Shown here in pieces: positions 11,548 through 33,315 of a DNA stretch of 47,464 bases; within the stretch, counting starts at the first letter, position 1, and each line of letters starts with the position of its first letter. The stretch is from an uncultured Bacteroidales bacterium. GTDB taxonomy: Bacteria > Bacteroidota > Bacteroidia > Bacteroidales > Paludibacteraceae. The notes under the pieces are model-generated. The model was not told the DNA's origin. It did no database searches and saw nothing but the letters and a program-made list of their open reading frames with translations. Both the position numbers and the translations under genes were made by a program. The DNA is taken from positions 1 through 47,464 of the forward strand of contig CACYGT010000006.1 in assembly GCA_902774075.1 (NCBI GenBank), written 5' to 3'.

Positions 11548-11581
11548 TTCAAATCTCAAATTTCAAATTTCAAATATCGAA
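11548..11581. repeat. Low-complexity 8-9 nt word repeat filling the recN/DUF4835 spacer
   Basis: The whole 34-nt spacer is iterations of TTTCAAATC/TTTCAAAT words (four or five copies with small changes), running up to the stop codon of the DUF4835 gene. One of a dispersed family in this window. Confidence 0.85.
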
Positions 11582-12508
11582 TCATTCATTGATTCGATCA
11601 TATGTTGCTTGTCGGGTGGGGTCGATATCGTTGAGGACCTCATAGACTGTTTTCTTCTCGGAGGCAGTACCTTTCTTGAAGATATCCACCAACTCTTCGG
11701 CTTTTGCATCAAGGAAAGTGTTGATCACATAGGTCGCAGGACGCGCTCTGTAGGCTTCTTTGAGGACGGGAATACCTTCCGCGATACGTGCACGACCGTT
11801 TGTCACGTTGCTGCTCATCTCGTCCAGGCCCAAACGGTGGTACTCGTAGTAATAATTGCGGTATTTTTTGAAAGCTTCGTCCAAGATGTTGTTAATCAGT
11901 GCGTAACGGTTTCTGTTGCTATCAAAAGCGACCCAACCTTTCTGCTCCAAGGCCTCCATGCTGGCTGCCTGACACACGGTCACGATCTCTTCACATTGTT
12001 TGAAGAACGGCGTGCCGCCCAGACGTTGGAAGCTGTCTTGGTCGTGTCCAATGATGAGGTAGCAGTAATAGGCCAACATCGCCGTGAGGTTCGTGGTGAA
12101 CGTACTCTGTTGCCAGTCGAGACGATCGTACTCCTGGTAGTAGAAATTGAAGTTATTGTCCTTGAAGTTCAGCAGCGGGGTAGTATAGGTCGTACCATAG
12201 ACCGGTCGACGGCTCTGCAGGGTCATCTCGCAGGTCCATAAGTTATCCGCAAAGGCTTTCACCAAGATCAACATGCTGCACTCGATCTTCTCCTGCTCGG
12301 CATAGGTCATGTTCGTCCAGCGGTTTTGGTTCATGTATTCTTCGATAGACGTGCGCAGGGTTTCAAAAACCTGCTTACTCGAACCATCTATCAGGTCCGA
12401 GTTGACTGTTACCGTGCAATGAATCTCTTGCGCCCTGGCGGGACTAAAGACCGCTACGCTCAAGGACAAAAGACAAAGGACTAAAATGTGTTTGGAATCA
12501 AAAATCAT
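11582..12508 (-). CDS. DUF4835 family protein (putative type IX secretion accessory protein)
   Basis: 308 residues with a signal peptide (KHILVLCLLSLSVAVFSPARAQ). The mature protein carries the family-typical EIHCTVTVNSDLI start, the RNRWTNMTYAEQEKI region (written NQNRWTNMTYAEQEKI), YYCYLIIGHDQDSF and a C-terminal helical part ending DPTRQATYDRINE. From memory the family is linked to the type IX secretion system under the name PorD; I cannot confirm that here. It is expected in the periplasm or outer membrane. The start ATG lies inside a run of AAATC-type repeat words. Position next to recN matches the usual Bacteroidota order. Confidence 0.82.
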   Translation of the reverse strand: MIFDSKHILVLCLLSLSVAVFSPARAQEIHCTVTVNSDLIDGSSKQVFETLRTSIEEYMNQNRWTNMTYAEQEKIECSMLILVKAFADNLWTCEMTLQSRRPVYGTTYTTPLLNFKDNNFNFYYQEYDRLDWQQSTFTTNLTAMLAYYCYLIIGHDQDSFQRLGGTPFFKQCEEIVTVCQAASMEALEQKGWVAFDSNRNRYALINNILDEAFKKYRNYYYEYHRLGLDEMSSNVTNGRARIAEGIPVLKEAYRARPATYVINTFLDAKAEELVDIFKKGTASEKKTVYEVLNDIDPTRQATYDRINE

Positions 12509-12540
12509 AAATCTTAAATATCAAATCTCAAATATCAATT
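12499..12540. repeat. Low-complexity word repeat covering the DUF4835 start and spacer
   Basis: Repeated ATAAATC, TTAAATATC, AAATCTC and AAATATC words with a period of 7-9 nt fill the 30-nt gap and contribute the start codon and first residues of the DUF4835 gene, and the last bases touch the DUF4831 stop. Confidence 0.8.
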
Positions 12541-13585
12541 ACTTAGTAATTGATTCGATATTTCCGGTTTTGTCACTAATGATGATCTGCGGCAGTTCTT
12601 TGTCCGTAAACATATTCTTCGGCAGCGCTACGTCCACACCGAACTGCGCTACAGGGATCGTACGGCCGGCTAATGTATGGTCTTGGTACACCACACTCAC
12701 CTCGCATCGTCCGGGTACGTTATATACGATAGGAGATAACTCAATCGGCGCTGTCTTCTTCTTACCTACCGGCTCTTCCGCTGGCTGTTTGTACTGACGC
12801 TCACACACCATACGCACTTCGATCGTATCCGCCTCAATATTATCCGCGTCCGTAAAACCATTCTCCTCCGAGAAGAAAAGCATCTGGGTAATCTCACTCG
12901 GCTCTATCTCAATGGTCTTGTGCTCGTGACGAATCGTTTTCTTGCCTACGAATAACTCCGTAAGCGCTTTTTCTTGTTGTGCTAACTCTTCCAGCACCAG
13001 ACGCATGGCTTCGCCGTCAGCGGGGGCGTGCTCTACCTCGCCGGTGAGGATATATCCTCTTGTCTCGCGGATATGCAGGATCTGTTTGGCTACTACTTCG
13101 GCCTGCGCTTCAGGCGTCGCGACCATCATGACATCTTCTGTGAACGGTGCAGCCTTGAAGGAGATGGATCTTGGCTGCTTGCAATCTTTGGGCATATTAG
13201 GACGACGCGGCTCACGAGGCAGAGCAGCTACGTTGTATCCGGTCAACAAGCCTTTGTCGTTGATACGCAGCAACATCGGTATGCCGTCTTCGGCACTCAC
13301 TTTGTGTACGCGGTCGAAGTCCGTTTGTGTCTGTGTGTGTATCTTCACGTCCTTGAGTTCATAGGTCGTACTGCTTTCTGTCACGAAGTCGTGTACCTCT
13401 AAGAGGCTCTCTGCAAACTCTGCGTACGGACCTTTCTCCAGCGTGGTGACAGTATAACTGAAGTCCAGACACAACATGGTCTTCGGACTATAGTACACCA
13501 GTGCCGACTCCCCTTCTACCAATACTTGTGCGTTCAGCACGCTACATAACACCGCTCCTACGAGCACTAAAAAGATTTTTTTCAT
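12539..13585 (-). CDS. DUF4831 family protein
   Basis: 348 residues with signal peptide MKKIFLVLVGAVLCSVLNAQ. The mature part resembles the Bacteroidota family DUF4831: an early ESALVYYSPKTMLCLDFSYTV strand region (given here in part), a middle PRSISFKAAPFTEDVMM segment and ILHIRETRGYILTGEVEHAP. It looks like an all-beta secreted protein and no catalytic motif is apparent. Function is unknown. The ATG at 13585 overlaps the aroE stop as ATGA and directly precedes the signal peptide, which is why it is chosen over the codon at 13594. Confidence 0.7.
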   Translation of the reverse strand: MKKIFLVLVGAVLCSVLNAQVLVEGESALVYYSPKTMLCLDFSYTVTTLEKGPYAEFAESLLEVHDFVTESSTTYELKDVKIHTQTQTDFDRVHKVSAEDGIPMLLRINDKGLLTGYNVAALPREPRRPNMPKDCKQPRSISFKAAPFTEDVMMVATPEAQAEVVAKQILHIRETRGYILTGEVEHAPADGEAMRLVLEELAQQEKALTELFVGKKTIRHEHKTIEIEPSEITQMLFFSEENGFTDADNIEADTIEVRMVCERQYKQPAEEPVGKKKTAPIELSPIVYNVPGRCEVSVVYQDHTLAGRTIPVAQFGVDVALPKNMFTDKELPQIIISDKTGNIESITK

Positions 13586-14292
13586 TTGTTCCATATTTTC
13601 CAGGCCGCTTTCGCTTGGCCATATAACATTTCTATTCCGTTTTGGGTTTTTGCTCCCTGTGCCGCCCCTTTGCGTAAGAAAAGGGTCTCCTCGGGGTTGT
13701 ACACGCAGTCAAACAACAAATGTCGTGCCGAAAGGTACTCGTACGGTATCTCCGGACAGTTTTCTATTTGCGGATACATACCCAGCGGCGTACAATTGAC
13801 GATCACGGTATAGGCTGCCATTACCTCTTCTGTTAGTTCGGCATAGGTCAACACTCCTTCACGCTTCGTACGACTGACGAGAGTAGGGGTGAGTCCTAAT
13901 TGTTGGAGACCGTAACAAACGGCTTTGGACGCTCCGCCTGTACCGAGTACCAAGGCTTTTTGATCGTTTGCTCGCAACAAAGGACGTATTGACTCCATAA
14001 AACCAATGCAGTCCGTGTTGTAACCTATACGCTGGTGTACGACGTTTACTGCGCCTACTGCTTTGGCCGTTTCGTCCAATGCGTCCAAGTACGGTATGAT
14101 GGCTTGCTTGTACGGCATGGTCACATTGAATCCGTCCAAACGATTCAACAGCTCTTCGATCTGTGATTTCAGATCTTCCATCGGGTAGAGTGAGTACTCC
14201 GCGTCAATGCCCTCACGGGCAAATTTCTGAGAGAAATATCTCGCGGAGAAAGAGTGCTGTAATGGATATCCTATTATACCGTAGTGACGCAT
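13582..14292 (-). CDS. aroE: Shikimate dehydrogenase
   Basis: 236 residues, slightly short for the family (about 245-280) but with the key parts. These are GYPLQHSFS near the start, the catalytic Lys62 in NVTMPYKQ, Asp94 in YNTDCIGF, the nucleotide-binding GTGGASKAV (about 118-126) and CTPLGMYP, with the C-terminal NGIEMLYGQAKAAWKIW. It reduces 3-dehydroshikimate with NADPH in aromatic amino-acid synthesis. The start overlaps the tilS end by 19 nt. No other shikimate gene is nearby. Confidence 0.93.
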   Translation of the reverse strand: MRHYGIIGYPLQHSFSARYFSQKFAREGIDAEYSLYPMEDLKSQIEELLNRLDGFNVTMPYKQAIIPYLDALDETAKAVGAVNVVHQRIGYNTDCIGFMESIRPLLRANDQKALVLGTGGASKAVCYGLQQLGLTPTLVSRTKREGVLTYAELTEEVMAAYTVIVNCTPLGMYPQIENCPEIPYEYLSARHLLFDCVYNPEETLFLRKGAAQGAKTQNGIEMLYGQAKAAWKIWNK

Positions 14293-15152
14293 AATTTTCC
14301 TTTCTTGATCGTTGCTTTGTGGGTCCTTGAGGTGAATGTCTTGCCCCCTTCTCCCTTCTCCAAGGCATCGTAAATCTTATCTATTTCTGCAAAGCCGTAT
14401 TCACGAAGACGCTCGTAGAGTGACACAACACCTGCTTCGCGCGTTTCCCGACCCTCTACTATATCTACATAGCCCTGCATGATCTCTGCTGTCTGTGCCA
14501 TATGTTCGATCTCCGATTTGGAGTACGAACGTAGTTGCTCGCGGATGGCGTTGCGAGTGATCGAGGTGTCGTTGTTGGTACTATCTACGACCCATGAAAG
14601 CTGCCGTTTATCGCGCAGGTAATGCTCTATATAATCGCGTGTTGTGCAGAGTAAAGGACGAACGATAGGCACACTCTCCGGCGCCATCGGGTTAGGGCTT
14701 ATCGGACGGATACCGGCTAAACCTCTAAGCCCTGTACCTCGTTTGAGATTGAGCAAGAGCGTCTCCGCCTGGTCGTTCTGATGATGGGCTACACATATCG
14801 CTTGGCAGGCATGTTGGCGGGCTATCTCATCGAACCACGCATAGCGTAATTCCCGTGCAGCTACTTCGATACTCACCTTATGTTCGCGCGCGTAAGAGCG
14901 CGTGTCAAAATGCGTTACCTCTAACGGCACATTCATCGTAGCGCATAGTTCGCGCACAAACGCCTCGTCGCGGTCACTCTCTGCACCGCGTAGTGCAAAG
15001 TTGCAATGCGCCGCGATACAGGTGTAGCCGGCACGAACCAGAACATCCAACAGCGATACGCTGTCTGCGCCTCCACTAAGGGCTACCAACACCGGCTTAT
15101 CTTTGGTTAATAAACCGTGCTTGCGGATATATGTCGTAACGCGTCTAAGCAC
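14274..15152 (-). CDS. tilS: tRNA(Ile)-lysidine synthase, short form
   Basis: 292 residues. The N-terminal PP-loop ATPase domain is complete: SGGADS (residues 26-31), the AHCNFALRGAESDRDEAF segment and CVAHHQNDQAETLLLNLKRG. TilS modifies the wobble C of the tRNA-Ile CAU anticodon to lysidine so that it reads AUA. Many homologues are over 400 residues with extra C-terminal domains; here the protein stops just after the catalytic core and a short tail (KATIKKGKLCVTTV). Single-domain enzymes are known in other phyla, so it is probably functional. The start overlaps the ettA end by 8 nt. Confidence 0.9.
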   Translation of the reverse strand: MLRRVTTYIRKHGLLTKDKPVLVALSGGADSVSLLDVLVRAGYTCIAAHCNFALRGAESDRDEAFVRELCATMNVPLEVTHFDTRSYAREHKVSIEVAARELRYAWFDEIARQHACQAICVAHHQNDQAETLLLNLKRGTGLRGLAGIRPISPNPMAPESVPIVRPLLCTTRDYIEHYLRDKRQLSWVVDSTNNDTSITRNAIREQLRSYSKSEIEHMAQTAEIMQGYVDIVEGRETREAGVVSLYERLREYGFAEIDKIYDALEKGEGGKTFTSRTHKATIKKGKLCVTTV

Positions 15153-16821
15153 CTAATCCTCTATATTTGACCCGTTTTGGTTGGCAAGCTTCTTCGCCTA
15201 ATCGCATTTTCTTGTTCTCCTCGTACTCCGAGTAACTTCCTTCGAACCAGAAGACTTTGCCGTCTCCCTCGTAAGCGAGGATATGGGTACAGATACGGTT
15301 TAAGAACCAACGGTCGTGACTGATGACTACCGCACAGCCGGCGAAGTTCTCTAAGCCTTCTTCCAATGCACGTAAGGTGTTGACATCGATATCATTCGTC
15401 GGCTCGTCAAGTAAGAGCACGTTAGCTTCGGACTTGAGTGTAAGGGCCAAGTGCAGACGATTTCTCTCACCGCCGGAGAGTACACCGCATTTTTTCTCTT
15501 GGTCAGCGCCCGTAAAGTTAAAACGACTCAAGTAAGCACGGGCATTGATCTCTCGTCCTGCGACACGAATGAACTCCGTTCCGCCGCTAATGGTCTCGAA
15601 TACTGATTTGTTGGGGTCAATATCCGTATGTTGCTGATCGACGTAGCCGATCTTGACCGTCTCGCCGACGGAGAAGGTACCTTTGTCGGCTTTCTCGCTG
15701 CCGATGATCATACGGAAGAGAGTAGTCTTACCGGCTCCGTTCGGACCGATCACACCTACGATACCGTTCGGCGGTAACATGAAGTTAAGGTCCTCAAACA
15801 AGAGACGGTCACCAAAGGACTTAGCGACGCCTTCGGCGTTAATGACCTTATTACCCAAACGCGGTCCGTTGGGAATAAAGATCTCGAGTTTCTCCTCGCG
15901 TTCCTTCTGCTCCTCGTTCAACATGCGGTCATAGGACTCCAGACGAGCTTTCTGTTTGGCGTGACGGGCTTTGGGTGCCATACGAATCCACTCCAACTCG
16001 CGTTCAAGGGTCTTACGACGTTTGGAAGCCTGTTTCTCTTCTTGGGCCATACGGTTTGTCTTCTGTTCGAGCCAAGACGAGTAGTTGCCTTTCCAAGGAA
16101 TTCCTTCACCGCGGTCCAGTTCGAGGATCCAACCGGCTACGTTATCCAGGAAGTAACGGTCGTGGGTGATGCAGATGACTGTGCCGGCATATTGCTGCAG
16201 GTGTTGCTCCAACCAATCGATACTCTCCGCGTCGAGATGGTTAGTCGGCTCGTCGAGAAGCAGCACATCGGGCTGCTGGAGTAGTAAGCGGCAGAGGGCT
16301 ACACGACGACGTTCACCTCCGGAGAGTGTAGTGACGTTCGCGTCATCTGGCGGACAACGGAGTGCGTCCATCGCTCGGTCGAGTTTCTGGTCAATGTTCC
16401 AAGCGTCCGCGGCATCGAGTTTGTCTTGCAGTTCTGCCTGACGGGCTAAGAGCTTATCGAAGTCCGCATCGGGCTCTGCAAAAGCCATGTTGATATCGTC
16501 ATACTCCTTGAGCATGTCCATGATCGGCTGTACACCTTCTTGTACTACCTCGCGAACGGTCTTTGAAGGGTCCAGTTTAGGGTCCTGCTCCAAGTAGCCT
16601 ACGCTGTATCCGGGCGACCAAACGACTTCACCTTGGTATTCTTTCTCAATACCGGCGATGATTTTCAGAAGGGTCGATTTACCGGCACCGTTGAGACCGA
16701 TGATGCCGATCTTAGCGCCATAGAAAAAACTAAGGTAGATGTTTTTTAGTACCTGTTTCTGCGGACCAAAACTCTTGTTAAGGCCCACCATGGAAAAGAT
16801 GATTTTCTTATCGTCTGCCAT
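15145..16821 (-). CDS. ettA: ABC-F protein, energy-dependent translational throttle EttA
   Basis: 558 residues with two ABC domains and no membrane segment. Domain 1 has GLNGAGKST (42-50), LSGGERRRVALCRLL and LLLDEPTNHLDAESIDW. Domain 2 has GPNGAGKTTLFRMI, LSGGERNRLHLALTL and LLLDEPTNDIDVNTLRALEE, the last typical of the EttA subgroup. The charged linker with KARHAKQKARLESYDRML lies between them. EttA binds the ribosomal E site and gates entry into elongation according to ATP/ADP. The ATG at 16821 (MADDKK) is preferred over the TTG three codons upstream. It overlaps the folA end by 14 nt. Confidence 0.94.
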   Translation of the reverse strand: MADDKKIIFSMVGLNKSFGPQKQVLKNIYLSFFYGAKIGIIGLNGAGKSTLLKIIAGIEKEYQGEVVWSPGYSVGYLEQDPKLDPSKTVREVVQEGVQPIMDMLKEYDDINMAFAEPDADFDKLLARQAELQDKLDAADAWNIDQKLDRAMDALRCPPDDANVTTLSGGERRRVALCRLLLQQPDVLLLDEPTNHLDAESIDWLEQHLQQYAGTVICITHDRYFLDNVAGWILELDRGEGIPWKGNYSSWLEQKTNRMAQEEKQASKRRKTLERELEWIRMAPKARHAKQKARLESYDRMLNEEQKEREEKLEIFIPNGPRLGNKVINAEGVAKSFGDRLLFEDLNFMLPPNGIVGVIGPNGAGKTTLFRMIIGSEKADKGTFSVGETVKIGYVDQQHTDIDPNKSVFETISGGTEFIRVAGREINARAYLSRFNFTGADQEKKCGVLSGGERNRLHLALTLKSEANVLLLDEPTNDIDVNTLRALEEGLENFAGCAVVISHDRWFLNRICTHILAYEGDGKVFWFEGSYSEYEENKKMRLGEEACQPKRVKYRGLGA

Positions 16822-17296
16822 ATTCTGCAAATGTATAATCGTAAGGATTCTTATCGTCTGCGCTGTGATGTTCTGCGCTCAGTTGTTTCCAAATAGCGGG
16901 GTCAATGACGGGGAAGAAGGTATCCGCGTCAGGCCAGGAGTGATGGATATGCGTGATATAGAGTTTGTCTGCCCGCTCCATCATCTGGCGATACACCATA
17001 CCGCCTCCGATGACGAAGGCTTCTTCTTCGCCTTGTACGGCATGTACCATCTCGTCTAAGGAATAGACGGATTCAGCGCCTTCGAAGGTCTTACCGGGGA
17101 CATCTGTTAAGACGATGTTACGGCGATTTGGCAGCGGGTGTTTGGGAAGTGAGAAGAACGTTCGCTCACCCATCATGACCGTTTTTCCGCTCGTGATCGT
17201 TTTGAAATGCTTCAGGTCCTCCGGCAAATGGCATAAGAGGTCCCCTTTCTTGCCGATCGCATAGTTCTCAGCTATTGCTACTATAATCGAAATCAT
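16808..17296 (-). CDS. folA: Dihydrofolate reductase
   Basis: 162 residues, the normal size. The N-terminal [30 protein letters not shown] holds the substrate pocket (quoted parts: [20 protein letters not shown]), followed by [13 protein letters not shown] and [16 protein letters not shown] for NADPH binding and [17 protein letters not shown]. It reduces dihydrofolate produced by the neighbouring thymidylate synthase. Start and thyA stop overlap as ATGA, so the two steps are coupled at translation. Confidence 0.95.
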
Positions 17297-18087
17297 ACAG
17301 CTACAACGCCCGCGATATGAGGATGCGGGTCATATCCCTCTAATGTAAAATCTTCGTATTGGAACCCAAAGAGGTCTATGACCTCCGGGTTGATGAGCAT
17401 CTTCGGTAAAGGACGAGGCTCACGGGTCAACTGCAGTTTTACTTGGTCCAAATGGTTCAAGTAGATATGTGCATCACCGAGCGTGTGCACAAAATCACCG
17501 CACTCGAGGCCTGTCACCTGCGCCATCATCTGAAGGAGTAGGGCATAGGACGCGATGTTAAAGGGCACACCCAAGAAGATATCCGCGCTGCGCTGATAGA
17601 GTTGGAGCGAGAGTTTGCCGTCTGCCACATAGAACTGGAACAAGCAGTGACAGGGCGGTAAGGCCATTTGATCCACTTCTGCTACGTTCCATGCGCTGAC
17701 GAGCATACGACGGCTGTCGGGGTTCTTCTTGATCGTCTCGACGATATTGGCTATCTGGTCTATTGTTCCGCCTTTATAATCAGGCCAAGAGCGCCATTGA
17801 TGGCCATAGACCGGCCCCAGTTCTCCATTCTCGTCCGCCCATTCGTTCCAGATACGTACACCATGTTCCTGCAGGTACTTGACGTTGGTGTCGCCTTGGA
17901 GAAACCATAACAGTTCGTAAATGATGGACTTGAGGTGCAGTTTCTTGGTGGTCAAGAGCGGAAAGCCGTCTGCCATGTGGAAACGCATCTGGTGTCCGAA
18001 CACCGAGATGGTTCCTGTGCCTGTGCGGTCATGTTTAACGGTGCCTTCTTCGAGCACACGTTTGCATAAATCCAAATATTGTTGCAT
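17293..18087 (-). CDS. thyA: Thymidylate synthase
   Basis: 264 residues starting [20 protein letters not shown], exactly the length and start of the Escherichia coli type enzyme. The catalytic cysteine is Cys146 in [14 protein letters not shown], with the arginine pair [10 protein letters not shown] upstream and the C-terminal [14 protein letters not shown]. It methylates dUMP with methylene-tetrahydrofolate, making dTMP and dihydrofolate. The frame continues upstream to 18234, but those residues overlap the OmpA gene in another frame and are not thymidylate synthase sequence. The start lies 1 nt after the stop of the OmpA-like gene. Confidence 0.96.
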
Positions 18088-18088
18088 G

Positions 18089-20170
18089 TTAATACAGTTT
18101 ATACGTTGTTCGTAATACCTTGAACTCCGTGCGGCGGTTGATCTGGTTACAGATCTCCTGTTTGTCTGCGGTGAGGGTACTGATGAACGCCTCGTCCAGA
18201 CGTTGTTCCAGGGGTATCCAAGGATACTTGTCATGGAGTTGTTTCGTACCTACCATCGGCATCGTTTTGCCGTATCCTACAGGAGTCAGGCGTTCGCGTT
18301 CGATGCCTTGCTTCACGAGGTAGTCACAACAACTCTGCGCACGTTTTTGGCTCAGTTCGTTGTTATACTCGTCCGTACCTTTCATATCGGTGTGGGCACT
18401 GAGTTCGATGGTGATATTGGGATTTTCGTTGAGTAGTTTCACCAAGCGGTTGAGTTCCTCTTCCGAAGCCTTGGTGATGTCCCATTTGTCGAACTCATAG
18501 AAGATATTCTCCATGGTTACGGGACGCGAGATCGGGTTGAGGATAAAGTCCACGTTGTAGGACTTGCTGTCCTTGAGGTTGAGCGTGTTGAGTTGCTCTT
18601 TCAGGTTAAGGAAACCTCGTGCGGTCGCGAGCATGACATATTTGACGTCCTTATGCAGTTTGATTTTGTATGTACCATCTCGGCGGGCATTGACGCGGCT
18701 GTTCGTACCATCACTACCTACCAAGCGCAACTTGGCATCAGAGATGATATTATCCAATTCGTCTTTGACTGTTCCTTCTACGATGAACTCCATCTCCGGT
18801 AGCCAGAAGCGGTAGATCTTGTCAAAACCTTTCTTGTCGCCTTTGTTGGACGAGAAGAAACCGTCTTGGGTGTTACCGGCAAAGGTGATACCAAAGTCAT
18901 CTCCGATACCGTTGAAGACCGGCCCCATATTGTAGAGTTCCCACACCACACTATCTTTGATCGTTGTATCGCGGTTGGCTTTGTAGATATCCAATCCGCC
19001 GTATCCCGGGTGACCGTTGGACGAGAAATAAAGGGTGCCATCATCGTGTACATACGGGAACATCTCATCGGCAGCGGTGTTGATACCTTTCCCCAGCGGC
19101 TGAGCGTTGACCCATTCATCGCCATCGTGTTCTGCGAACCAGATATCCTTTCCGCCTTGTCCGCCCGGTGCGTCACTTGCGAAATAGAGTGTATCTCCGG
19201 AAGGGCTAATGGCAGGATGCCCTACTGTGATCGTGCTGTCTTTGAAGAGCCTCACTTCCTGCGGTTCGCCCCATTCACCACTTGCCCGCTCACTCTTGTA
19301 TATCTTTGCCCCGAGGTCCTTGCCATTGATAGGCTTGGAGTAGGTGAAGTACATCGTTCGGCCGTCTCTGGTGAAGCAGCATGCTCCCATCTCCGCCGTT
19401 CCGGCTTGTTTGAGGGCCGAGTCGTTCTGCTCGGTCTCGGGGCTGTCATATAAGCCTTCCGCCAAACTGATCTCTTCCCATTCTCCCGCTGCGTTCTTGC
19501 GTGTCTGGTAGAGTTGGAAGAGTTGTTGTCCGGTGACGTTGCTGGGTCTTTTGAGTTTCTTTGTGCCGCTTCCTTGCTTCTCTTGACGGTTTGATGTGAA
19601 CATCAATGCATCGGTCTGATCGCCGATAAACATCGGTGCGAAGTTGCTTGTGCGTTTTTGGTTAAATGGCTTCGCTTCCTCGGTTTTGTAACGACTCGAC
19701 TCTTTGCGCCAAGCGTCTATGTGCTCGCAAGCATACTTTCCGGCCTGCGCTACATAGTTATCCGGATGAGATTCCAGATAGAGAGCATAGCTCTTGGCTG
19801 CATCTTTGTATTTACCTTGGTATTGAAGCGCGAGGCCGCAATGAAGGAAGATCGTGGAGTCCTGCAAGTGGTACTTACAACGCAACGCACTCTGGTAGGC
19901 ATTTACAGCACGGGGATTATTGATGAGTCGGTAACACTCACCTTGCTGATACGCAACGTAGCCTTTGAGCGCACGATCTTTTTTGGTGCTTAGGTGGCTG
20001 TAACACTGCTTGTAGAGATCAGCGGCGGTGTAATATTCGCCGATCGCGAACTTCTTATCCGCCCGCTTAATACGTTGCTGGATAGAGCAGCCGCTCAGAA
20101 GAATTGAAAATTGAAAAATGAAAATTGAAAGGAGAAAACTTTTCACCTTTAACCGTTCACTTTTCACCAT
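18089..20170 (-). CDS. PorE-like lipoprotein: TPR, PD40 propeller, carboxypeptidase-regulatory-like and OmpA domains
   Basis: 693 residues. A lipoprotein signal ends in LLSGCS; TPR units span about 40-160; a PD40/WD40-like propeller about 175-440 (repeats such as [21 protein letters not shown]); a small beta domain about 450-540 ([18 protein letters not shown]); and a C-terminal OmpA peptidoglycan-binding domain ([31 protein letters not shown]). This order matches PorE of the type IX secretion system, though Bacteroidota also have paralogues with other roles. The ATG at 20170 follows an AAAGGAAAT ribosome site; the earlier GTG at 20191 lies in repeat. Repeated AATTGAAA words (complement) encode the signal peptide. 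Confidence 0.85.
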
Positions 20171-20199
20171 ATATTTCCTTTCACTTTTCACCTTTCAAC
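20101..20199. repeat. Low-complexity word repeat across the PorE-like gene start
   Basis: About 100 nt of near-tandem words, first AATTGAAA/AATGAAA (inside the signal-peptide codons), then CTTTTCAC/CCTTTAAC (start region and the 29-nt spacer to the DUF1015 gene). It crosses the coding boundary without a change of style. Confidence 0.85.
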
Positions 20200-21447
20200 T
20201 TAATTAAGTTCATGTATGACTAATCCTGAACGTAATTTGGGCTCGAACCACGTGGTCTTAGGCGGCATAATATTGCCAGAGTCCGCGATATCGATGATTT
20301 GCTTCATGGTGACAGGGTAGAGGGCAAGCGCCATCTTCATTTCTCCGCTATCCACACGACGTTTGAGTTCGCCGAGTCCGCGAATACCGCCTACAAAGTC
20401 GATACGCTTGTCGGAACGCAGGTCTTTGATGCCGAGGATCTTGTCGAGGATGAGGTTACTGGAAATAGTAACGTCCAGCACTTCGATGGGATCGGCATCG
20501 TTGTAGCGTCCTTTCTTGGCAGTAAGCGAGTACCATTTGCCGCCGAGATAGAGCGAGAAGTTATGCAAGCCTTGCGGTTTGTAGATATCAGCGCCTTTCT
20601 CTTCTACTTTGAAGTCGGTCTTGAGGGCCTTGAGGAATTGCGCCTCGGTCAGACCGTTGAGGTCCTTGACTACACGATTATAGTCGATGATATTGAGTTG
20701 ATTATCCGGAAAACAAACCGCCAAGAAGAAATCGGACTCGGGATTCTTGATCTTTGCGTTCTGATTCTTAGCTTTCAGTTCCTCGCCTACACGAGCGGCG
20801 GCAGCAGAGCGGTGGTGCCCGTCTGCGATATACATCGCCGGTATCTCTTCGAAGATGGCCGTAATACGATCTATGGTCGCTTTGTCGTTAATGATCCAGA
20901 ACGTATGTCTAAAGCCTTCCGGCGCCGCTACGAAATCATATTCGGGCTTGGCTTTGCAGACGTCAGCTACGATGGCATCGAGGTCAAAGCGGTGAGGGTA
21001 GGCAAAAAAGACGGGCTCCATGTTCGCGTTGAGTGTACGCACATGTTTCATGCGGTCCTCTTCTTTGTCGCGGCGCGTGAGTTCGTGTTTCTTGATACGT
21101 CCCTCGAGGTAGTCATCTACCCATGCAGCGACTACCAGACCATACTGCGTCTTACCGTTCATAGTTTGGGCATAGACGTAGTAATGCTCCTTTTCGTCCT
21201 GCACGAGCCAGCCTTTGATTTTAAAACGCTGATACTGCTGTTTGGCCTCCCCATAGACGCGCGGGTCGTGTTCGTCGGTGCCGGGTTCGAAATTGATCTC
21301 AGGTTTGATGATATGATAGAGGCTCATATCGTTGCCTGCCGCTTCTTTGCGTGCCTCGTCAGAGTTGAGCACGTCATACGGCCGGCTACTGACCTGTTCC
21401 ACCAATTCTTTTGGCGGCCGAACACCTTTGAAAGGTTTGATTTTCAT
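20200..21447 (-). CDS. DUF1015 family protein
   Basis: 415 residues starting MKIKPFKGVRPPKELVEQVS, the classic DUF1015 opening (FKGxRP). Further family marks are the RPYDVLNSDEAR segment, DGHHRSAAAARVG near the middle and YPVTMKQIIDIADSGNIMPP near the end. No signal peptide. Members are often beside serine biosynthesis genes and some relatives are serine kinases, but no such neighbour is seen here, so the role is open. Near residues 225-240 lies AKNQNAKIKNPES, encoded by repeated GATTCTT/GATCTTT words (complement), which looks like an in-frame member of the low-complexity repeat family. Confidence 0.85.
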   Translation of the reverse strand: MKIKPFKGVRPPKELVEQVSSRPYDVLNSDEARKEAAGNDMSLYHIIKPEINFEPGTDEHDPRVYGEAKQQYQRFKIKGWLVQDEKEHYYVYAQTMNGKTQYGLVVAAWVDDYLEGRIKKHELTRRDKEEDRMKHVRTLNANMEPVFFAYPHRFDLDAIVADVCKAKPEYDFVAAPEGFRHTFWIINDKATIDRITAIFEEIPAMYIADGHHRSAAAARVGEELKAKNQNAKIKNPESDFFLAVCFPDNQLNIIDYNRVVKDLNGLTEAQFLKALKTDFKVEEKGADIYKPQGLHNFSLYLGGKWYSLTAKKGRYNDADPIEVLDVTISSNLILDKILGIKDLRSDKRIDFVGGIRGLGELKRRVDSGEMKMALALYPVTMKQIIDIADSGNIMPPKTTWFEPKLRSGLVIHELN

Positions 21448-21450
21448 AAC

Positions 21451-21464
21451 TCAGAATATTCTGA
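21451..21464. promoter_or_regulatory. 14-bp perfect palindrome in the bactofilin/DUF1015 spacer
   Basis: TCAGAATATTCTGA is a perfect palindrome, followed by TTAATCTGATT, in the 36-nt gap upstream of the DUF1015 gene. It could be a protein-binding site or only part of the repeat words filling this gap; no promoter is visible beside it. Confidence 0.35.
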
Positions 21465-21483
21465 TTAATCTGATTTTTCGGAA

Positions 21484-21849: not shown

Positions 21850-21887
21850 AATTATATCCGTTTAATTTAAATTTTCAAAATCGGGCG

Positions 21888-21919
21888 CAAAGTTACAACT
21901 TTTTTTTGACATACGCAAA
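21888..21919 (-). promoter_or_regulatory. Bacteroidota-type promoter of the bactofilin gene
   Basis: On the minus strand TTTG, 20 nt, TAACTTTG, matching the -33/-7 elements TTTG and TAnnTTTG. The start of transcription should be near 21881, about 30 nt before the ATG. The sequence from TTTG to beyond the -7 box is almost identical to the promoter facing the other way at 22209-22239. Confidence 0.8.
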
Positions 21920-22099
21920 TGTTTGTATATTTTTATACAAAATAAGCACTAAAAATGGCGTCAAATTGAATGGTAAAAAAGTGCAAAATGAAAATTCAAA
22001 AATGCGCATTTTCTGCAAATTTTGATATGCTTGTAATATGCACAATACCAATGAATTATATAATAAAATTTTTAATAAAGTCTAGGACGCGTTATAAGG

Positions 22100-22132
22100 G
22101 GTGTATAGACGGTGTATAGCGGGTGTATTTCG
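22100..22132 (+). repeat. Three-unit 11-nt phased direct repeat
   Basis: GGTGTATAGAC, GGTGTATAGCG and GGTGTATTTCG follow each other with an exact 11-nt period. They lie about 75 nt upstream of the predicted -33 box of the LRR gene promoter. One-helical-turn spacing suits cooperative protein binding, which is inference. Confidence 0.65.
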
Positions 22133-22208
22133 GGGCGTCTGAATGCAAGAAAAAAAATGATAAAAAATTTAAAAAAATAATAAAAATTATGGAAAATCGC
22201 GCGTGCGC

Positions 22209-22239
22209 TTGCATATGTCAAAAAAATGTTGTATCTTTG
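22209..22239 (+). promoter_or_regulatory. Bacteroidota-type promoter of the LRR/exopolysaccharide operon
   Basis: TTG, 20 nt including an A7 tract, TATCTTTG. Transcription should start near 22246, about 19 nt before the LRR start. It probably drives LRR, gmd, fcl and perhaps the full run to the DUF1846 gene, since no second promoter was seen in the short gaps. Confidence 0.82.
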
Positions 22240-22264
22240 CGGCCGATTTAAAAAATACGACATT

Positions 22265-23536: not shown

Positions 23537-23549
23537 TATAAGGAAGAAT

Positions 23550-24623: not shown

Positions 24624-25564
24624 TGGAGAAGAATTCAAAGATATATGTAGCCGGGCATAGAGGCATGGTAGGTTCTGCTATCGTGCGGGAGTTGGAACGG
24701 CAGGGATACACGAATATCATTACTCGAACGCATAAGGAGTTGGACCTGTGTCGGCAGGAAGATGTAGAACGTTTCTTTGAAACGGAGAAACCGGAGTATG
24801 TGTTTCTGGCTGCCGCTAAGGTCGGCGGTATCATCGCTAATGAGCGTCATCTGGCGGACTTTATGTACGACAACATGATTCTGGAGATGAATGTGATTCA
24901 TGCGGCGTGGAAGAACGGCGTGAAGAAGTTGGAGTTCTTGGGTTCGAGTTGTATCTACCCGCGTCTCGCTCCGCAGCCGATGAAAGAGAGTTGTCTGCTG
25001 ACGGGTGAACTGGAGAAGACCAACGAGGCGTACGCGCTGGCCAAGATATCCGGCCTCAAATACTGCGAGTTTCTCAATCGCCAGTACGGCACGGATTATA
25101 TCTCCGTCATGCCGACAAACCTGTACGGTCCGAACGATAATTATCATCCTGAGCATAGCCATGTGTTGCCTGCGCTCATACGTCGTTTCCACGAAGCGAA
25201 AGTAGAGGGAAAGAAAAGTGTGACGTGCTGGGGAACCGGAAGTCCGTTGAGAGAGTTCTTGTATGTCGATGACCTGGCTAACTTGTGCGTGTTCCTGATG
25301 AATAACTATAGCGGCAATGAGACCGTGAATGCCGGAACGGGAAAAGAGTTGACGATCAAGGAGTTGACGGAACTCGTAGCGAAGGTCGTAGGCTATGAAG
25401 GCGAGATACAATGGGATACGACGCGTCCGGACGGCACGCCAAGGAAGTTGCTGGATGTAAGTAAGGCGACGGCGTTGGGCTGGACATATAAGACAGAACT
25501 CGAAGACGGTATTCGGCTGGCGTACAAAGATTTTTTGGAGAATCCCATGCGGGCTGAACGATAA
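24623..25564 (+). CDS. fcl: GDP-L-fucose synthase
   Basis: 313 residues. GHRGMVGSA near residues 11-19 binds [20 protein letters not shown] and [13 protein letters not shown] carry the Ser-Tyr-Lys catalytic set; [19 protein letters not shown] is typical of the family. It epimerises and reduces the Gmd product to GDP-L-fucose, so the pair forms a complete two-step route. L-Fucose is a common sugar in Bacteroidales capsules and glycoproteins. Translation is coupled to gmd by a one-base overlap. Confidence 0.96.
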
Positions 25565-25579
25565 CCGGTTTAGAACCGG
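25565..25579 (+). other. Hairpin between fcl and the deacetylase-like gene
   Basis: CCGGTT-TAG-AACCGG, a 6-bp stem with a 3-nt loop, directly after the fcl stop and without a T-run. It is more likely an mRNA processing or stability element than a terminator. Confidence 0.5.
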
Positions 25580-25591
25580 AGCAAAATAACC

Positions 25592-27366
<1,775 letters not shown>

Positions 27367-27370
27367 CGCG

Positions 27371-27413
27371 TATTTGTCATTTGTAATTTATGATTTATGA
27401 TTTATAAATTCAA
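27371..27413. repeat. Low-complexity word repeat at the first export gene start
   Basis: TATTTGTC, ATTTGTA, ATTTATG, ATTTATG, ATTTATA words with a period of 7-8 nt fill the 30-nt gap and form the start codon and first residues of the export lipoprotein. Confidence 0.8.
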
Positions 27414-28269
27414 ATATTTATTGTTTTTGGCATTAGTGAGCTGGGCATTGTCGTCCTGTGTGACAGCGCGGAAAGTGAACTACATGCAGAATCCGGACAA
27501 GCATATCCCGCATTACGCGGATACCTTATTGTTTACGGACTACGAACTGCGAATTGGAGACCGGTTGTATGTGACTGTCTATTCGATGGACGAAACCATC
27601 ATGAAGATGTATAACGCCGGCGGAACGAGCGCAAATATCCGTCAGCAGATGGGAGTAGGGTACTCGAACGGTTCGTATGACCTCTATACCTATCTGGTGG
27701 ACGAGGAAGGTAACATCGATTTTCCGACGATCGGTAAGATCTATGTGCAGGGAAGTACCTCGCGTGAGGTAAAGCGTAAGTTGGAAGACGCGTTGGGTAC
27801 GTTACTTCGTGAGATACCCGGATATAGCACGATCTCGGTGGAGGTGTATATCGTGAACCGCAGTTTCTCGGTAGTAGGTGCACAAAGCGGCCGTTATCCG
27901 ATCACGAAGGAGAAGATGACTATTTTTGAGGCCTTGGCGCTGGTGGGAGACTTGAAAGAATTCAACAGCCGCAAGGAGATTAAGCTCGTTCGCGAGAAGA
28001 ACGGCGTAACGACGATCAAGACGTTTGATGCCCGTTCGAAGGAGATCGTTAACTCGGAGTATTATTATATTGAGCCCAATGACATCATCTATATCCGCCA
28101 GATACCGGGATATAGCTTCGGTATCAACTCGGCTTCGACGGTAGTGGGTGTGACGGCGGCGACGATATCGTTTGGTGCGTTCATCTACACCATTATTCAG
28201 ACAGGTATTAACCATGTGCGCAAACACTACGGTTCGGGCACATCATCATCGGAAGGAGGTACCAAATGA
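27397..28269 (+). CDS. Polysaccharide export outer-membrane lipoprotein (Wza/BexD family), copy 1
   Basis: 290 residues. Lipoprotein signal ending LSSC near residue 20; a poly_export domain (about 48-155: ELRIGDRLYVTVYSMDE, VDEEGNIDFPTIGKIYVQG) and an SLBB domain (about 158-240: FSVVGAQSGRYPITKEKMTI). A hydrophobic C-terminal helix (about 248-272) may cross the outer membrane as in Wza. The protein would form the export channel for the polysaccharide. The next gene is a paralogue that starts within the last codons (ATGA). Confidence 0.92.
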   Translation: MIYKFKYLLFLALVSWALSSCVTARKVNYMQNPDKHIPHYADTLLFTDYELRIGDRLYVTVYSMDETIMKMYNAGGTSANIRQQMGVGYSNGSYDLYTYLVDEEGNIDFPTIGKIYVQGSTSREVKRKLEDALGTLLREIPGYSTISVEVYIVNRSFSVVGAQSGRYPITKEKMTIFEALALVGDLKEFNSRKEIKLVREKNGVTTIKTFDARSKEIVNSEYYYIEPNDIIYIRQIPGYSFGINSASTVVGVTAATISFGAFIYTIIQTGINHVRKHYGSGTSSSEGGTK

Positions 28270-29036
28270 GACGATTAAGCATTGTATTATTGGGCCTTGT
28301 AGCGGTGTTGATGACCGGTTGTTACAGTCACCGTCAGATCGGTTACCTGCAAGAGCCGACGAAAGCGAACAAGTTGCCGGTTTATGACTCGGTTGCGTAC
28401 GAGCCGTATCGTATCCGCGTGAACGATGAGATCATCTACCGTCTGATTACCTTGGACGAGAAGATGATGAAGATGTTTGAAGCGAATAATAATGTGGCGA
28501 ACGGTCAATATGCCAACTCGTACCGCGTATATGCCGACGGAACGGTAGATATACCATTCTTGAAGCCGGTTAAGTTGGTTGGCTTGACAGAAGCGGAAGC
28601 GCAGGACACCTTGAAAGCTGCGTTCCGCGAGATCATACCGGACGCAGATGTCAAGTTAGCGCTGTATAACAAGTATTTCTCTGTCATCGGAGACGCGCGT
28701 GCAGGTCAGTTCTTTATTTATAAAGAGAAGATGAATATCTTCCAGGCGCTGGCACTGACGGGTGACGTGATGAACAGCGGTGACCGCAGGCATATCCGTA
28801 TTATCCGCCCGCGGGACGGCGGACAAGAACCCGAAGTGCTTGAGTTTGATATGCGTACCAACACGATCATTGACAGTAAATATTACTATATTTACCCGAA
28901 CGACGTCATCTATGTGGCACGCACCAAAGACAGTTTCTACAAGGTGCCGTCATACACAGGCTTTATCGCTCTGGTGACGAGCAGCGTGGCATTGTTAACT
29001 TCCGTATTGAATTATCTGGCTTATCTGTATAAATAA
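28266..29036 (+). CDS. Polysaccharide export outer-membrane lipoprotein (Wza/BexD family), copy 2
   Basis: 256 residues. Lipoprotein signal LVAVLMTGC, then the same poly_export plus SLBB layout as copy 1 (YRIRVNDEIIYRLITLDE, YADGTVDIPFLKPVKLVG, FSVIGDARAGQFFIYKEKMN) and a C-terminal hydrophobic stretch ending in NYLAYLYK. It is clearly homologous to copy 1 but diverged through its length, so the duplication is old or the pair form a mixed channel. Two nt separate its stop from the co-polymerase gene. Confidence 0.92.
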   Translation: MRRLSIVLLGLVAVLMTGCYSHRQIGYLQEPTKANKLPVYDSVAYEPYRIRVNDEIIYRLITLDEKMMKMFEANNNVANGQYANSYRVYADGTVDIPFLKPVKLVGLTEAEAQDTLKAAFREIIPDADVKLALYNKYFSVIGDARAGQFFIYKEKMNIFQALALTGDVMNSGDRRHIRIIRPRDGGQEPEVLEFDMRTNTIIDSKYYYIYPNDVIYVARTKDSFYKVPSYTGFIALVTSSVALLTSVLNYLAYLYK

Positions 29037-29038
29037 AA

Positions 29039-31684
29039 ATGAGTAAGAATAATCCCTATTACAACCCGGGTGGTAACAACCAGTACTACCAACCCGGAGG
29101 CAATAACCACTATTATCAACAAGGCGGTAACGGTCAGTACTATTACCAAGCAGGTGGGAATCAGCAGTATTATCAGCAAGATCCGCAGCAGAACGACGAT
29201 GACGAGGAGAGTTCGTTGAACTTCAATCCGCTGGAGTGGTTGTTCACGTTCCTGCATTACTGGTACTTGTTCGTGATTGCTATCGTGATCGCATTAGGTC
29301 TGGCGATGCTCAAGAACCGTCGTTGGATACCGACTTATTACTCGCAAGGCACGATCGTCATCAAGGAGAGCAGCACGTATGGTTCTTCGACCTCGATGTT
29401 GATGCAAGGCTTTGGTGTAGACGCTGTCTATAAGAACGTCAACAACCAGATGATTATGCTCGGTTCGTACGACTTGATGAGTAGGGTGGTTGACTCTTTG
29501 CCGTTCCTTAACGTTGAGTATATCACGCAAGGCCGTTTCAAGACCCGCCAACTCTACCGTCAAACACCGGTGCTCGTGGAGAGTTCGCGTCTGGACGCAC
29601 GTGCGTACGGAATCCTTTATCAGTTGTCGTTTGGTAAGGAAGGAGCTCTGCATATATCTTCTACGGACGAGAATACACCGCTGGAGATCGACACCAAGTA
29701 TGGTGAGCCGATACATTGTTCGCTCTTTGATATCGTCATCTGGCCGACCGAGTTCATGACAACCAACGGTAAGATTTACTTCCGTTTCCGTACACACGAG
29801 TCGCTGGTGGACGAGTTCATGAGTCGTCTGCAACTCTCGTTTGTGACTGAAGGATCTACGGTATTGGCTTTGTCGCTGGTGAGCGAGACGCCGCAACGTG
29901 ACTGCGAGTTCATTGATATGCTGGCTAAGATATACCTGCTGCAGAACCTCGAGCAGAAGAACGAAGTGGCAGAAAACTCCATACGTTTTATCAACGAGCA
30001 GTTGAAGAACTTGCAGGCTTCGCTGGAGGTGAGTGAAGGCGCCATGACAGACTTCCGCCAGGAGAATAAGTTCGTTGATGTCAATTCCTATGCCGGTCAG
30101 TTGATGAGCCAGATCACTACTTATGACCAGCAAGCACTGGAGTTAAGACTAAGGGAGACTTATTTTGACTACTTGACCAATTATCTGAATAAGAACATTG
30201 AGAACGACGCGGTGATAGCTCCGGCAACCTTAGGAGTGTCTGACCCGATGTTGATGACGCTGGTGACTCAACTCAACGACCTTCGTATTCAACGCGGAGA
30301 GTTGACGGAGAAGAACGTCTACTACGCCAAGTATACCAAGGACATGGAGAACGTGAAGACGGCCATGGCGGAGGTGGTGAAGACGATGCAGGCATCGCTG
30401 GAGATAGAGAAAGCGGACCTTCAACGTCGTTATAGCGAGGTAGAAAAGGCCATCCAGCAGTTACCGCAGAAAGAGTTGCAGATGGTAGCCATCGAGCGTA
30501 ACTATCGTATTGATGATAACTATTACACTTTCTTCCTGCAGAAACGCGCCGAGGCGGAGATTCAGAAAGCGTCTAACACGCCGGATAACAGCATCATGGA
30601 CAAGGCCCGCACGACCTCGATCATGAACTCTAAGGCCAAGAAACAGACGACAACGACTTATTTGATCGTCGGTTTCCTGATTCCGTTGGTACTTATTATC
30701 CTAAGCGAGTTGCTCAATAACAAGATTCGTTCGCCGAAGGATGTGATCAAATTGAAATCGTTCCGTTTGATCGGTACTTTACGTCACGCTAAGAACCAGA
30801 ACCCAACGCTCGTACGTGCCTCGCCTCGATCTTCGTATGCGGAGATGCTACGTGCTATCCGTACACGTATGGAGTTCATTTTGCGCCGAAAAGACAAGAT
30901 GGTGATCTGCACCACTTCGACTGAATCCGGTGATGGTAAGACGTTCCTTAGTACTAACCTCGCGGCGCTCTATGCCATGACAGGCAAGAAGACGCTGCTT
31001 GTCGACCTCGATATCCGCAAACCGAATATCCACACGAAGTTAGGTCTGGAGAACGGTAACGGTATATCCAACTACCTTGTAGGAGATTGTACGCTCGAGG
31101 AGGTGATGGTGAAAGATACCCCGTTTGGCTTTGACTTCCTGCGTGCCGGTACTATACCGCCTAACCCGGGTGAGTTGGTGCACTCCGATAAGTTAGCCGA
31201 ACTGTTCAAGAATATGCGTGAACAATATGACTTCATCGTTGTCGATACGTCGCCTATCGGTCTGGTACCGGACGCTTATGCCATCATCGAGCAGAGCGAT
31301 GTATGTCTGTTTATTATCCGCTGTATGCAGACCAATAAATCCTTCTGCAAGCAGACCTTGCAGCAGATGGAAGAAGTAATTGATATGCCGGAGAAAGTGC
31401 AGATCGTGCTCTCTGATATCCCGACCGAAGGACGTCACTCGTACGGTTCCGGTTACGGATATGGTTACGGCGGATACGGCGGATACGGCTACGGACACCT
31501 CGGATATGGTGGTTACGGTGGCTATGGCTACGGTTACGGCGGTGACAGCAGTCTTTCGAGGCGTTATGGCAAGTTGTATGGCAAACTCTATGGTAAGTTC
31601 GTCAAAGACGATAAGGCCTACCGCTCGTATTACTACTACCATCATGATGAAGATGATGAGGAAGGTGCTAAAGTTGAAAGTTAA
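29039..31684 (+). CDS. Wzc-like polysaccharide co-polymerase with bacterial tyrosine kinase domain
   Basis: 881 residues. Residues 1-52 are a low-complexity N-terminus of near-repeats NQYYQPGGN, NHYYQQGGN, GQYYYQAGGN, followed by an acidic DDDEESS. Then a first membrane helix (about 75-92), a periplasmic Wzz-type domain with coiled coil, a second helix (about 540-560) and a BY-kinase domain with STESGDGKTFLSTNLA (about 625-640), LVDLDIRKP (about 652) and FIVVDTSPI (about 730). The C-terminus is a Gly/Tyr-rich cluster of over twenty tyrosines, the expected autophosphorylation tail. It controls polysaccharide chain length and export. The N-terminal tract is not usual for the family. Confidence 0.93.
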   Translation: MSKNNPYYNPGGNNQYYQPGGNNHYYQQGGNGQYYYQAGGNQQYYQQDPQQNDDDEESSLNFNPLEWLFTFLHYWYLFVIAIVIALGLAMLKNRRWIPTYYSQGTIVIKESSTYGSSTSMLMQGFGVDAVYKNVNNQMIMLGSYDLMSRVVDSLPFLNVEYITQGRFKTRQLYRQTPVLVESSRLDARAYGILYQLSFGKEGALHISSTDENTPLEIDTKYGEPIHCSLFDIVIWPTEFMTTNGKIYFRFRTHESLVDEFMSRLQLSFVTEGSTVLALSLVSETPQRDCEFIDMLAKIYLLQNLEQKNEVAENSIRFINEQLKNLQASLEVSEGAMTDFRQENKFVDVNSYAGQLMSQITTYDQQALELRLRETYFDYLTNYLNKNIENDAVIAPATLGVSDPMLMTLVTQLNDLRIQRGELTEKNVYYAKYTKDMENVKTAMAEVVKTMQASLEIEKADLQRRYSEVEKAIQQLPQKELQMVAIERNYRIDDNYYTFFLQKRAEAEIQKASNTPDNSIMDKARTTSIMNSKAKKQTTTTYLIVGFLIPLVLIILSELLNNKIRSPKDVIKLKSFRLIGTLRHAKNQNPTLVRASPRSSYAEMLRAIRTRMEFILRRKDKMVICTTSTESGDGKTFLSTNLAALYAMTGKKTLLVDLDIRKPNIHTKLGLENGNGISNYLVGDCTLEEVMVKDTPFGFDFLRAGTIPPNPGELVHSDKLAELFKNMREQYDFIVVDTSPIGLVPDAYAIIEQSDVCLFIIRCMQTNKSFCKQTLQQMEEVIDMPEKVQIVLSDIPTEGRHSYGSGYGYGYGGYGGYGYGHLGYGGYGGYGYGYGGDSSLSRRYGKLYGKLYGKFVKDDKAYRSYYYYHHDEDDEEGAKVES

Positions 31685-31700
31685 AAGTTGAAAGTTTAAG
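31670..31700. repeat. Low-complexity word repeat at the kinase stop and DUF1846 leader
   Basis: AAAGTTGA, AAGTTAAA, AGTTGA, AAGTTTAA words form the last codons of the Wzc-like gene (KVES), its stop and most of the 21-nt spacer, ending in the AAGGAAAT ribosome site of the next gene. Confidence 0.85.
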
Positions 31701-31705
31701 GAAAT

Positions 31706-33187: not shown

Positions 33188-33195
33188 AAGCCTCT

Positions 33196-33274: not shown

Positions 33275-33315
33275 CCAGCGCTCTATTGATAGTCCTCCAG
33301 GATTAGGGCGAAGCA

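Follow-up and report, generated by a model that had tools for sequence, protein, structure and literature searches.

A contig of 47,464 nt from an uncultured gut-type Bacteroidales bacterium of the Paludibacteraceae (GenBank assembly GCA_902774075.1, contig CACYGT010000006.1, positions 1 to 47,464; our contig C6, hereafter the window) carries short, degenerate tandem arrays with a repeat period of 7 nt, which occupy the small spaces between its genes and also lie within genes. Such arrays recur across the genome and in other Bacteroidota, are written in many different words, and carry different words at the same gene junction in sister species. Here we describe the arrays and put forward, with about even confidence, the reading that each is the scar of a recurrent insertion mutation that writes 7-nt repeats and whose products are then filtered by purifying selection.

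The genome comprises 1.80 Mb in 95 contigs and is 86% complete. Its closest named relatives by RecN (77-81% identity) are metagenome-assembled genomes (MAGs) labelled Paludibacteraceae or Bacteroidales, several of them from ruminant gut samples. The own-genome sample consisted of the window plus 20 further 20-kb stretches of this genome (447 kb in total), in which 332 genes were called with our own caller; gene starts are estimates because this caller is a simple hexamer model. Periodicity of individual gaps and sites was assessed by comparing the match at each lag with 1000 dinucleotide shuffles. Location classes were assigned to 231 arrays with a score of at least 12, taken from the own-genome sample, two congeners (G034 and G014) and 80 named Bacteroidota loci. 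The word set comprised 302 arrays from which exact duplicates only were removed, so that orthologous arrays stay in, and word identity was counted up to rotation and strand.

Period, placement and turnover of the arrays

A first-pass annotation of the window had singled out eight stretches, most of them in short operon spacers, as near-tandem repeats of 7-10 nt words. All eight exist and are periodic, each with one lag far above its shuffles (p ≤ 0.005); they had been hand-picked and these p-values are uncorrected for that choice, while the genome-wide counts below are independent of it. The claimed spread of periods narrowed to 7 nt at six sites and 8 nt at two. The further statement that nearly all short gaps are of this kind goes too far: 6 of the 14 same-strand gaps of 15-80 nt in the window have lag 7 at p ≤ 0.01 and one has lag 9.

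The comparison with shuffled gaps that had been suggested for the genome was run beyond the window. Over 116 same-strand gaps of 10-150 nt (5,583 nt) the match at lag 7 was 0.367 against 0.289 in shuffled sequence (z=12.6), with further peaks at 14, 21 and 28, and lags 8 and 9 were weaker (z=3.9 and 4.6). At p ≤ 0.01, the 81 gaps of 15-80 nt included 21 with lag 7, five with lag 8, two with lag 9 and none with lags 5, 6, 10 or 11. Counted as segments, the 447-kb sample holds 73 at lag 7 and 0, 5, 8, 16, 0, 12, 5 and 0 at lags 5, 6, 8, 9, 10, 11, 12 and 13; the 80 named loci (1,519 kb) hold 129 lag-7 arrays against 3-27 at other lags. Tandem 7-nt units thus exceed both chance and other unit lengths, as in heptanucleotide simple sequence repeats.

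The same period prevails inside genes. Nearly half of the arrays in the own-genome sample (32 of 68) lie in called genes and still have period 7, the coding arrays of periods 6, 9, 12 and 15 numbering 3, 6, 4 and 3; for 22 of the 32 the coding score exceeds 6 on both flanks. Arrays have a median length of 32 nt in genes, 33 nt in same-strand gaps and 32 nt in convergent gaps. Because 7 dominates in genes although it is awkward for the reading frame, we take the period to belong to the making of the arrays and not to their function; selection alone would favour multiples of three there, so the dominance of 7 speaks for a process.

The 231 classified arrays fall into same-strand gaps (127), convergent gaps (22), divergent gaps (5), called genes (68) and contig edges (9). 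Per intergenic kb this amounts to 0.96 in same-strand gaps (131.6 kb), 0.78 in convergent gaps (28.0 kb) and 0.09 in divergent gaps, the last being about ten times poorer than the other two. Stop codons are overlapped by 80 of the 149 same-strand and convergent arrays, 28 more start at most 10 nt after a stop, and 41 lie farther off; the start of 91 of the 127 same-strand arrays falls between -33 and +10 of the upstream stop. This proximity is partly forced, since the gaps are short. A stop codon is also dispensable, since a period-8 array at 42307-42340 of the window comes after an RNase P RNA gene, at its 3' end. In L035, L036 and L046 a short ACATAG-containing string, perhaps a start codon or a motif, was seen after several stop-anchored arrays, just before the next gene.

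Between species the arrays turn over rapidly. Across congeners the junction between the DUF4835 gene and recN has arrays of the TTTGAAA, AGTTGAA, GAGTGAA, GATTAGA or GCTATTG type; in some congeners no gap separates the two genes. Pairwise alignments show the arrays as clean inserts between stop and start (seven pairs tried, three informative; three of the other four gave no usable plus-strand result and one had no arrays), and sister species without an array overlap by 1 or 4 nt at junctions where others have inserts. Over 16 junctions present in at least three of eight species, arrays were co-occupied in 33 species pairs against 20.7±3.4 on permuted presence (p=0.002), and 28 of the 33 pairs had different words. 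Some junctions are therefore favoured, and the word is not inherited for long.

Copy number, whose variation between strains the first-pass annotation had proposed to test, changes between close relatives. In an alignment of 112 kb between G017 and G075, which are 91-95% identical, some arrays differ by 14 nt and one by 58 nt, and several others are unchanged; indels of 14 nt number four, and those of 12, 13 and 15 nt number two, none and two. As regards the high-rate switching of phase-variation simple sequence repeats (contingency loci), the arrays are degenerate and several are identical in this pair. Within G017 array density is uneven, with 8 in one 20-kb stretch (G017:C20, L237) against 11 in 219 kb elsewhere.

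The many words argue for a process and against copies of a single element, as had been proposed from the window: the 68 arrays of the own-genome sample comprise 42 distinct words. They are not arbitrary, however. The 302 arrays comprise 138 distinct words against 223±5 when letters are permuted within words, and a seven-column model, D-T-T-R-W-N-A, reaches a log-likelihood of -1825 against -1955±3 for permuted words. Taken from intergenic arrays, this model also fits coding ones (z=7.4, or 2.6 when only unseen words are counted); taken from Paludibacteraceae-type loci, it also fits other Bacteroidota loci (z=6.4, or 2.8 for words not seen before). The words are mostly A/T-rich, GGG or CCC occurring in 9 of 302.

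Density differs strongly within one genus: no arrays were counted in 125 kb of G028 or in 52 kb of G008, against 25 in 100 kb of G034 and 12 in 25 kb of G082. These densities were recomputed by lag counting because a reversed word is not a neutral null, being itself a heptamer in which G014, G016 and G025 are rich; 52 genomes were counted with very unequal sampling, many at less than 15 kb, so that a full ranking cannot be read from them. Array-bearing loci among the 80 named ones include Prevotella communis E15-14, whose recN locus has four arrays, and several MAG Prevotella. No lag-7 arrays were found in L053, L054, L057, L061, L065, L079 and L091 (Bacteroides and Phocaeicola) or in L056, L066, L067 and L101 (other Prevotella).

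Origin of the arrays

In the reading that we favour, an insertion-type mutation would write a 7-nt word several times over, to a total length that is commonly about 32 nt. The probable step is reiterative slipped synthesis by a DNA polymerase in a 7-nt register, presumably set by the enzyme, in one burst or a fast series. Purifying selection would then keep arrays just after stop codons and 3' ends, and in proteins within hydrophobic N-terminal segments and hypervariable loops, and would leave them rarely in divergent gaps, where promoters lie. The gap-filling look would arise because the space from stop to start is the only tolerated place in tight operons. Arrays are inserted into junctions that overlap in sister species, they are of like length inside and outside genes, and no surplus of short forms was seen. 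Equilibrium slippage should leave a surplus of doublets, which is why we suppose birth in bursts or from doublets that expand fast.

Several points weigh against this reading. Both the enzyme and the mutation event itself we infer rather than observe. The shared D-T-T-R-W-N-A grammar is not predicted by plain slippage, and the mechanism leaves it unaccounted for, together with the low density of divergent gaps, which may reflect promoters or a lack of transcription, and the difference between array-rich and array-poor species. Single 7-nt indels are not in excess between G017 and G075 (three, with four each of 6 and 8 nt), and the 58-nt difference may be a contraction rather than a birth. Coding arrays differ slightly in length from same-strand arrays (p=0.011), and 10 of the 32 coding arrays are weak on one flank and may be mis-called gene ends. 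Variation among the units of an array at first looked concentrated in particular columns (as in TTTGANA, N being any base; 495 against 383±16), but it does not exceed chance when each variant is counted a single time per column (81 against 70±7). Most of it is explained by variant units having been copied repeatedly, and it was dropped as a sign of error-prone birth. Units per array are most often 4 and 5 (67 and 52 arrays, against 43 with 3), a mode that depends on the score cut of at least 8, which drops exact two-copy and degenerate three-copy repeats; a size peak with few doublets was accordingly discarded, the all-score distribution being flat and then falling, and the burst size is thus suggested at most.

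An ordinary slippage equilibrium acting on chance duplicates, with nothing specific to a lineage, is a rival reading that we regard as possible but on the whole unlikely. Short loops are removed by mismatch repair, and a 7-nt unit would be favoured by that removal. A MutS_V domain is present in all 22 congeners tested, which suits this explanation; it also led us to reject loss of mismatch repair as the difference between species. The 14-nt steps between near relatives point the same way, as does the published idea of a 7-nt polymerase contact, so far as the excerpted texts of PMC4679880 and PMC4692102 give it. Yet ordinary slippage does not single out 7 over 5, 6, 9 or 10, and it leaves unexplained both the shared grammar and the coexistence in one genus of the empty G028 and the dense G082. 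The two-copy surplus that it predicts was not seen at lag 7, though short forms do not stand out well from the background: outside arrays, two-copy repeats of 7 nt occur at 7.0 per 100 kb, against 3.7, 6.2, 6.6, 10.6 and 4.3 for lags 5, 8, 10, 11 and 13. Per score point, the lag-7 excess over these same lags was 9.9 at scores of 6.5-8 (two copies), then 12.3, 12.4, 10.1 and 9.2 up to 21, and 3.0 above.

A bolder version of the repeat-writing idea, to which we give a small chance, holds that the activity itself varies between lineages. A copying enzyme or repair route would stutter through some four or five 7-nt cycles per event, with a preference for D-T-T-R-W-N-A words and transcribed DNA, and would be gained and lost between congeners; it would make new spacers, signal-peptide cores and loops, and the arrays of Xanthomonas, Nostoc and Beggiatoaceae would be the same kind of product.

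Translation initiation free of Shine-Dalgarno (SD) sequences is common ground for Bacteroidota, and the words might accordingly be kept by selection as a putatively weakly structured, A-rich, SD-free stretch before the next start. This had been offered for the window as one cause of the repeats, and we now give it a slim probability. In its favour, the end of 47 of the 127 same-strand arrays falls no more than 10 nt before or after the next predicted start, and 87 of the 127 carry the motif in sense orientation (p=3.7e-5). The sense bias is, however, carried by the own-genome sample (21:8) and the named loci (51:18) and is lacking in the G034/G014 subset (15:14). As the cause of the arrays, a start-side spacer is not supported, because convergent gaps, which contain no start, are about as dense in arrays as same-strand gaps, and divergent gaps are far poorer. 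The arrays attach to stops, and in same-strand gaps of at least 100 nt the stop-side quarter has 22 of 48 arrays and the start-side quarter 10 (p=0.01). Arrays of the same period and about the same length lie within coding sequence, and many sister species have no gap at all. The idea of a gap filler by design was set aside separately: gap-size distributions of array-rich and array-poor congeners, in small samples, show no simple difference.

The attachment to stops would also suit a three-frame stop cassette, in which a stop every 7 nt falls in all frames and halts read-through or frameshifted ribosomes. A stop codon recurs at +7 in 39 of 117 arrays and at +14 in 37 of 116, and among the 87 sense arrays 89% have words that contain a stop. 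We nevertheless consider a cassette quite improbable, for 40 of the 127 arrays are antisense and only 32% of those hold a stop in the sense reading, periods of 5 and 10 nt would serve equally well yet are not enriched, arrays occur within open reading frames, and the period-8 array stands 3' of an RNase P RNA.

Least probable, and barely so at all, is a dispersed mobile element or templated insertion, such as a reverse transcriptase with a short template: the species distribution is uneven and words are common to several genera (AAAGGTG three times in tandem, one mismatch allowed, in 17 of 296 Bacteroidota genomes, spread over 11 of 140 genera, as compared with 6 of 296 genomes for the reversed word), but one genome sample alone holds 42 words in 68 arrays and no common flank was seen by eye among the 117 sites listed. 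A reverse-transcriptase origin was rejected because RVT_1 does not track array density, being present in 3 of 12 array-rich genomes (G015, G074 and G082) and 3 of 10 array-poor ones (G002, G008 and G012); it was not found in nine array-rich genomes, the window's among them, several of the MAGs compared being incomplete.

Sites in the window and neighbouring features

Strands given here for arrays are those bearing the D-T-T-R-W-N-A-like word, where one could be assigned. Around recN, a five-unit TTTGAAA/TTTGAGA array (11546-11583, minus strand) fills the 34-nt gap from the stop of the DUF4835 gene (11582-12508, minus) to the ATG of recN (9943-11547, minus), with lag 7 at p=0.001 over 11548-11581. 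A six-unit TTTGANA array (12496-12541, minus) fills the 30-nt gap between the DUF4831 gene (12539-13594, minus) and the DUF4835 gene and enters the first codons of the latter (12509-12538, lag 7, p=0.001). The 29-nt gap from the DUF1015 gene (20200-21447, minus) to the OmpA/PD40 gene (18089-20170, minus) has a CCTTTCA array (20177-20201, minus; 20171-20199, lag 7, p=0.003). On the plus strand, an ATTTATG/ATTTGTA array (27372-27407) lies between an oxidoreductase gene (26371-27366) and a polysaccharide export gene (27397-28269), whose start codon it takes in (27367-27396, lag 7, p=0.001), and a GTTGAAA array (31670-31699) starts in the last codons of gene 29039-31684, spans its TAA stop and heads towards gene 31706-33187 (31685-31705, lag 7, p=0.005). 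The remaining three stretches of the first-pass annotation carry no strand assignment. They are the period-8 array TTAACGGT (42307-42340), directly 3' of the RNase P RNA gene (42348-42607, minus) and ahead of gene 40984-42306 (minus), with lag 8 at p=0.001 over 42305-42336; a short CACAATT array of 2.3 exact copies (43249-43264; 43248-43270, lag 7, p=0.001); and the period-8 array CTAATCCA of 3.1 copies (43753-43777), which adjoins the stop of gene 43778-46171 (minus; 43756-43778, lag 8, p=0.001).

Five further arrays had been missed by that annotation. An AAACGGA/AAAACTG array of 4.3 copies (3461-3490, plus) lies in the gap between the minus-strand genes 3515-5473 and 2610-3377, at a gene end, and a TTTGTTC array (35340-35368, plus) covers the stop of gene 33316-35343 and the gap to gene 35361-37172. 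An AATTGAA array (20102-20130, plus) is within the N-terminal hydrophobic segment, signal-peptide-like by eye, of the OmpA/PD40 gene. The last two are in-frame: an AAATCAC-type array (34540-34571, minus) in a TonB-plug receptor gene (33316-35343, plus), within a loop of variable length and sequence among sister species, and an AAATCTC/AAATCAC array (38516-38548, minus) in a hypervariable loop of a periplasmic binding protein gene (37944-38969, plus). Compared with sister species, both lie between conserved blocks, in a loop that takes other inserts; these inserts differ in length and sequence, and some are 7-residue periodic by eye. Among the coding arrays of all samples, 14 of 68 start at most 30 residues from the predicted start.

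Peptides encoded by coding arrays include GERLKVKGER, KNFKFQISNFKF and ITNDKSQITN among the examples (L025:3343-3374, L018:4569-4608, L022:3746-3776 and window 34540-34571), and similar peptides occur in predicted proteins of other uncultured phyla. In orthologues of gene 37944-38969 from several congeners (L153, L155, L157 and L161) the hypervariable loop holds other, longer inserts whose peptides resemble one another (SVNERSY..., GPTAEGGQS...); these may form a second class of repeated insert.

Other repeats in the window are of different kinds. A 25-nt unit in 2.5 copies (37879-37941) occupies the gap between two genes and is not a heptamer array, and 11-nt tandem repeats stand in long intergenic regions at 46936-46990 (five copies) and 22099-22128 (2.7 copies). 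Across the sample, lags 9-11 and 20-22 are raised in long and non-same-strand gaps, as expected for helical phasing. The window also holds an AdoCbl riboswitch (33176-33320) before the TonB-plug receptor gene, and the RNase P RNA, of class A, is accompanied by a tRNA (42609-42679).

Relation to known heptamer repeats

The first-pass annotation had known of no description of such repeats; there are precedents. Heptamer arrays of Xanthomonas and Nostoc were reported by Rehm et al. According to the excerpted text of their paper (PMC4692102), these GGGAATC and GGGGA(C/T)T arrays are G-rich and quadruplex-forming with degenerate units, lie 0-50 bp from stop codons or over them, are under-represented between divergent genes, prefer four units, and vary in length and sequence between related species. 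The arrays described here share the period, the degenerate units, the proximity to stop codons, the rarity in divergent gaps and the variation between species. As to size, four units are preferred there (PMC4692102, same excerpts), and here 4-5 are commonest above the score cut of 8, which removes short arrays. In contrast to those G-rich words they consist of dozens of mostly A/T-rich ones, neither published word occurring among the 302; they also place different words at the same junction in sister species, and many lie in called genes.

The second precedent is the work of MacGregor on TAACTGA direct repeats in Beggiatoaceae, Cyanobacteria and some Bacteroidetes. In the excerpted text (PMC4679880) these are mostly intergenic and near gene boundaries, mostly just upstream of starts, related heptamers are rarely or never repeated in the main genome studied, and other heptamer repeats are mentioned in Bacteroidetes gaps. 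The present arrays are likewise heptameric, mostly intergenic and near gene boundaries. Unlike that one-word system they have many words, and TAACTGA is absent from the 302 words and has no direct repeats in the window. They are anchored at stops, with 47 of 127 same-strand ones also ending close to a start. A 2007 survey by Mrazek et al. of long prokaryotic repeats with units of 5-11 nt, as cited in PMC4679880 and PMC4692102, found heptanucleotides to be the most abundant class in most genomes and proposed polymerase contact length as the cause; those second-hand accounts say nothing of degenerate arrays in many words that turn over at orthologous sites. Literature searches for many-word, word-swapping heptamer arrays in Bacteroidales found only the Xanthomonas/Nostoc and Beggiatoaceae precedents. 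Because place, period and roughly size are common to these precedents and the word is not, the arrays are a many-word, fast-turnover form of known heptamer arrays.

An excess of heptamers in bacterial genomes has thus been on record without a proven mechanism. A single product of about 32 nt and period 7, made with many unrelated words in genes and gaps alike, separates the period, as a property of the process, from functions tied to one word, such as a quadruplex or a binding site; a similar number of units in arrays that lack G-tracts would make it less likely that the preference for four reflects quadruplexes. The more than tenfold differences in density within one genus open array-rich and array-poor congeners to comparison, and Prevotella communis E15-14, a named rumen relative with a complete genome, is suited to a direct mutation test. 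The arrays also seem to supply new sequence for linkers, loops and N termini.

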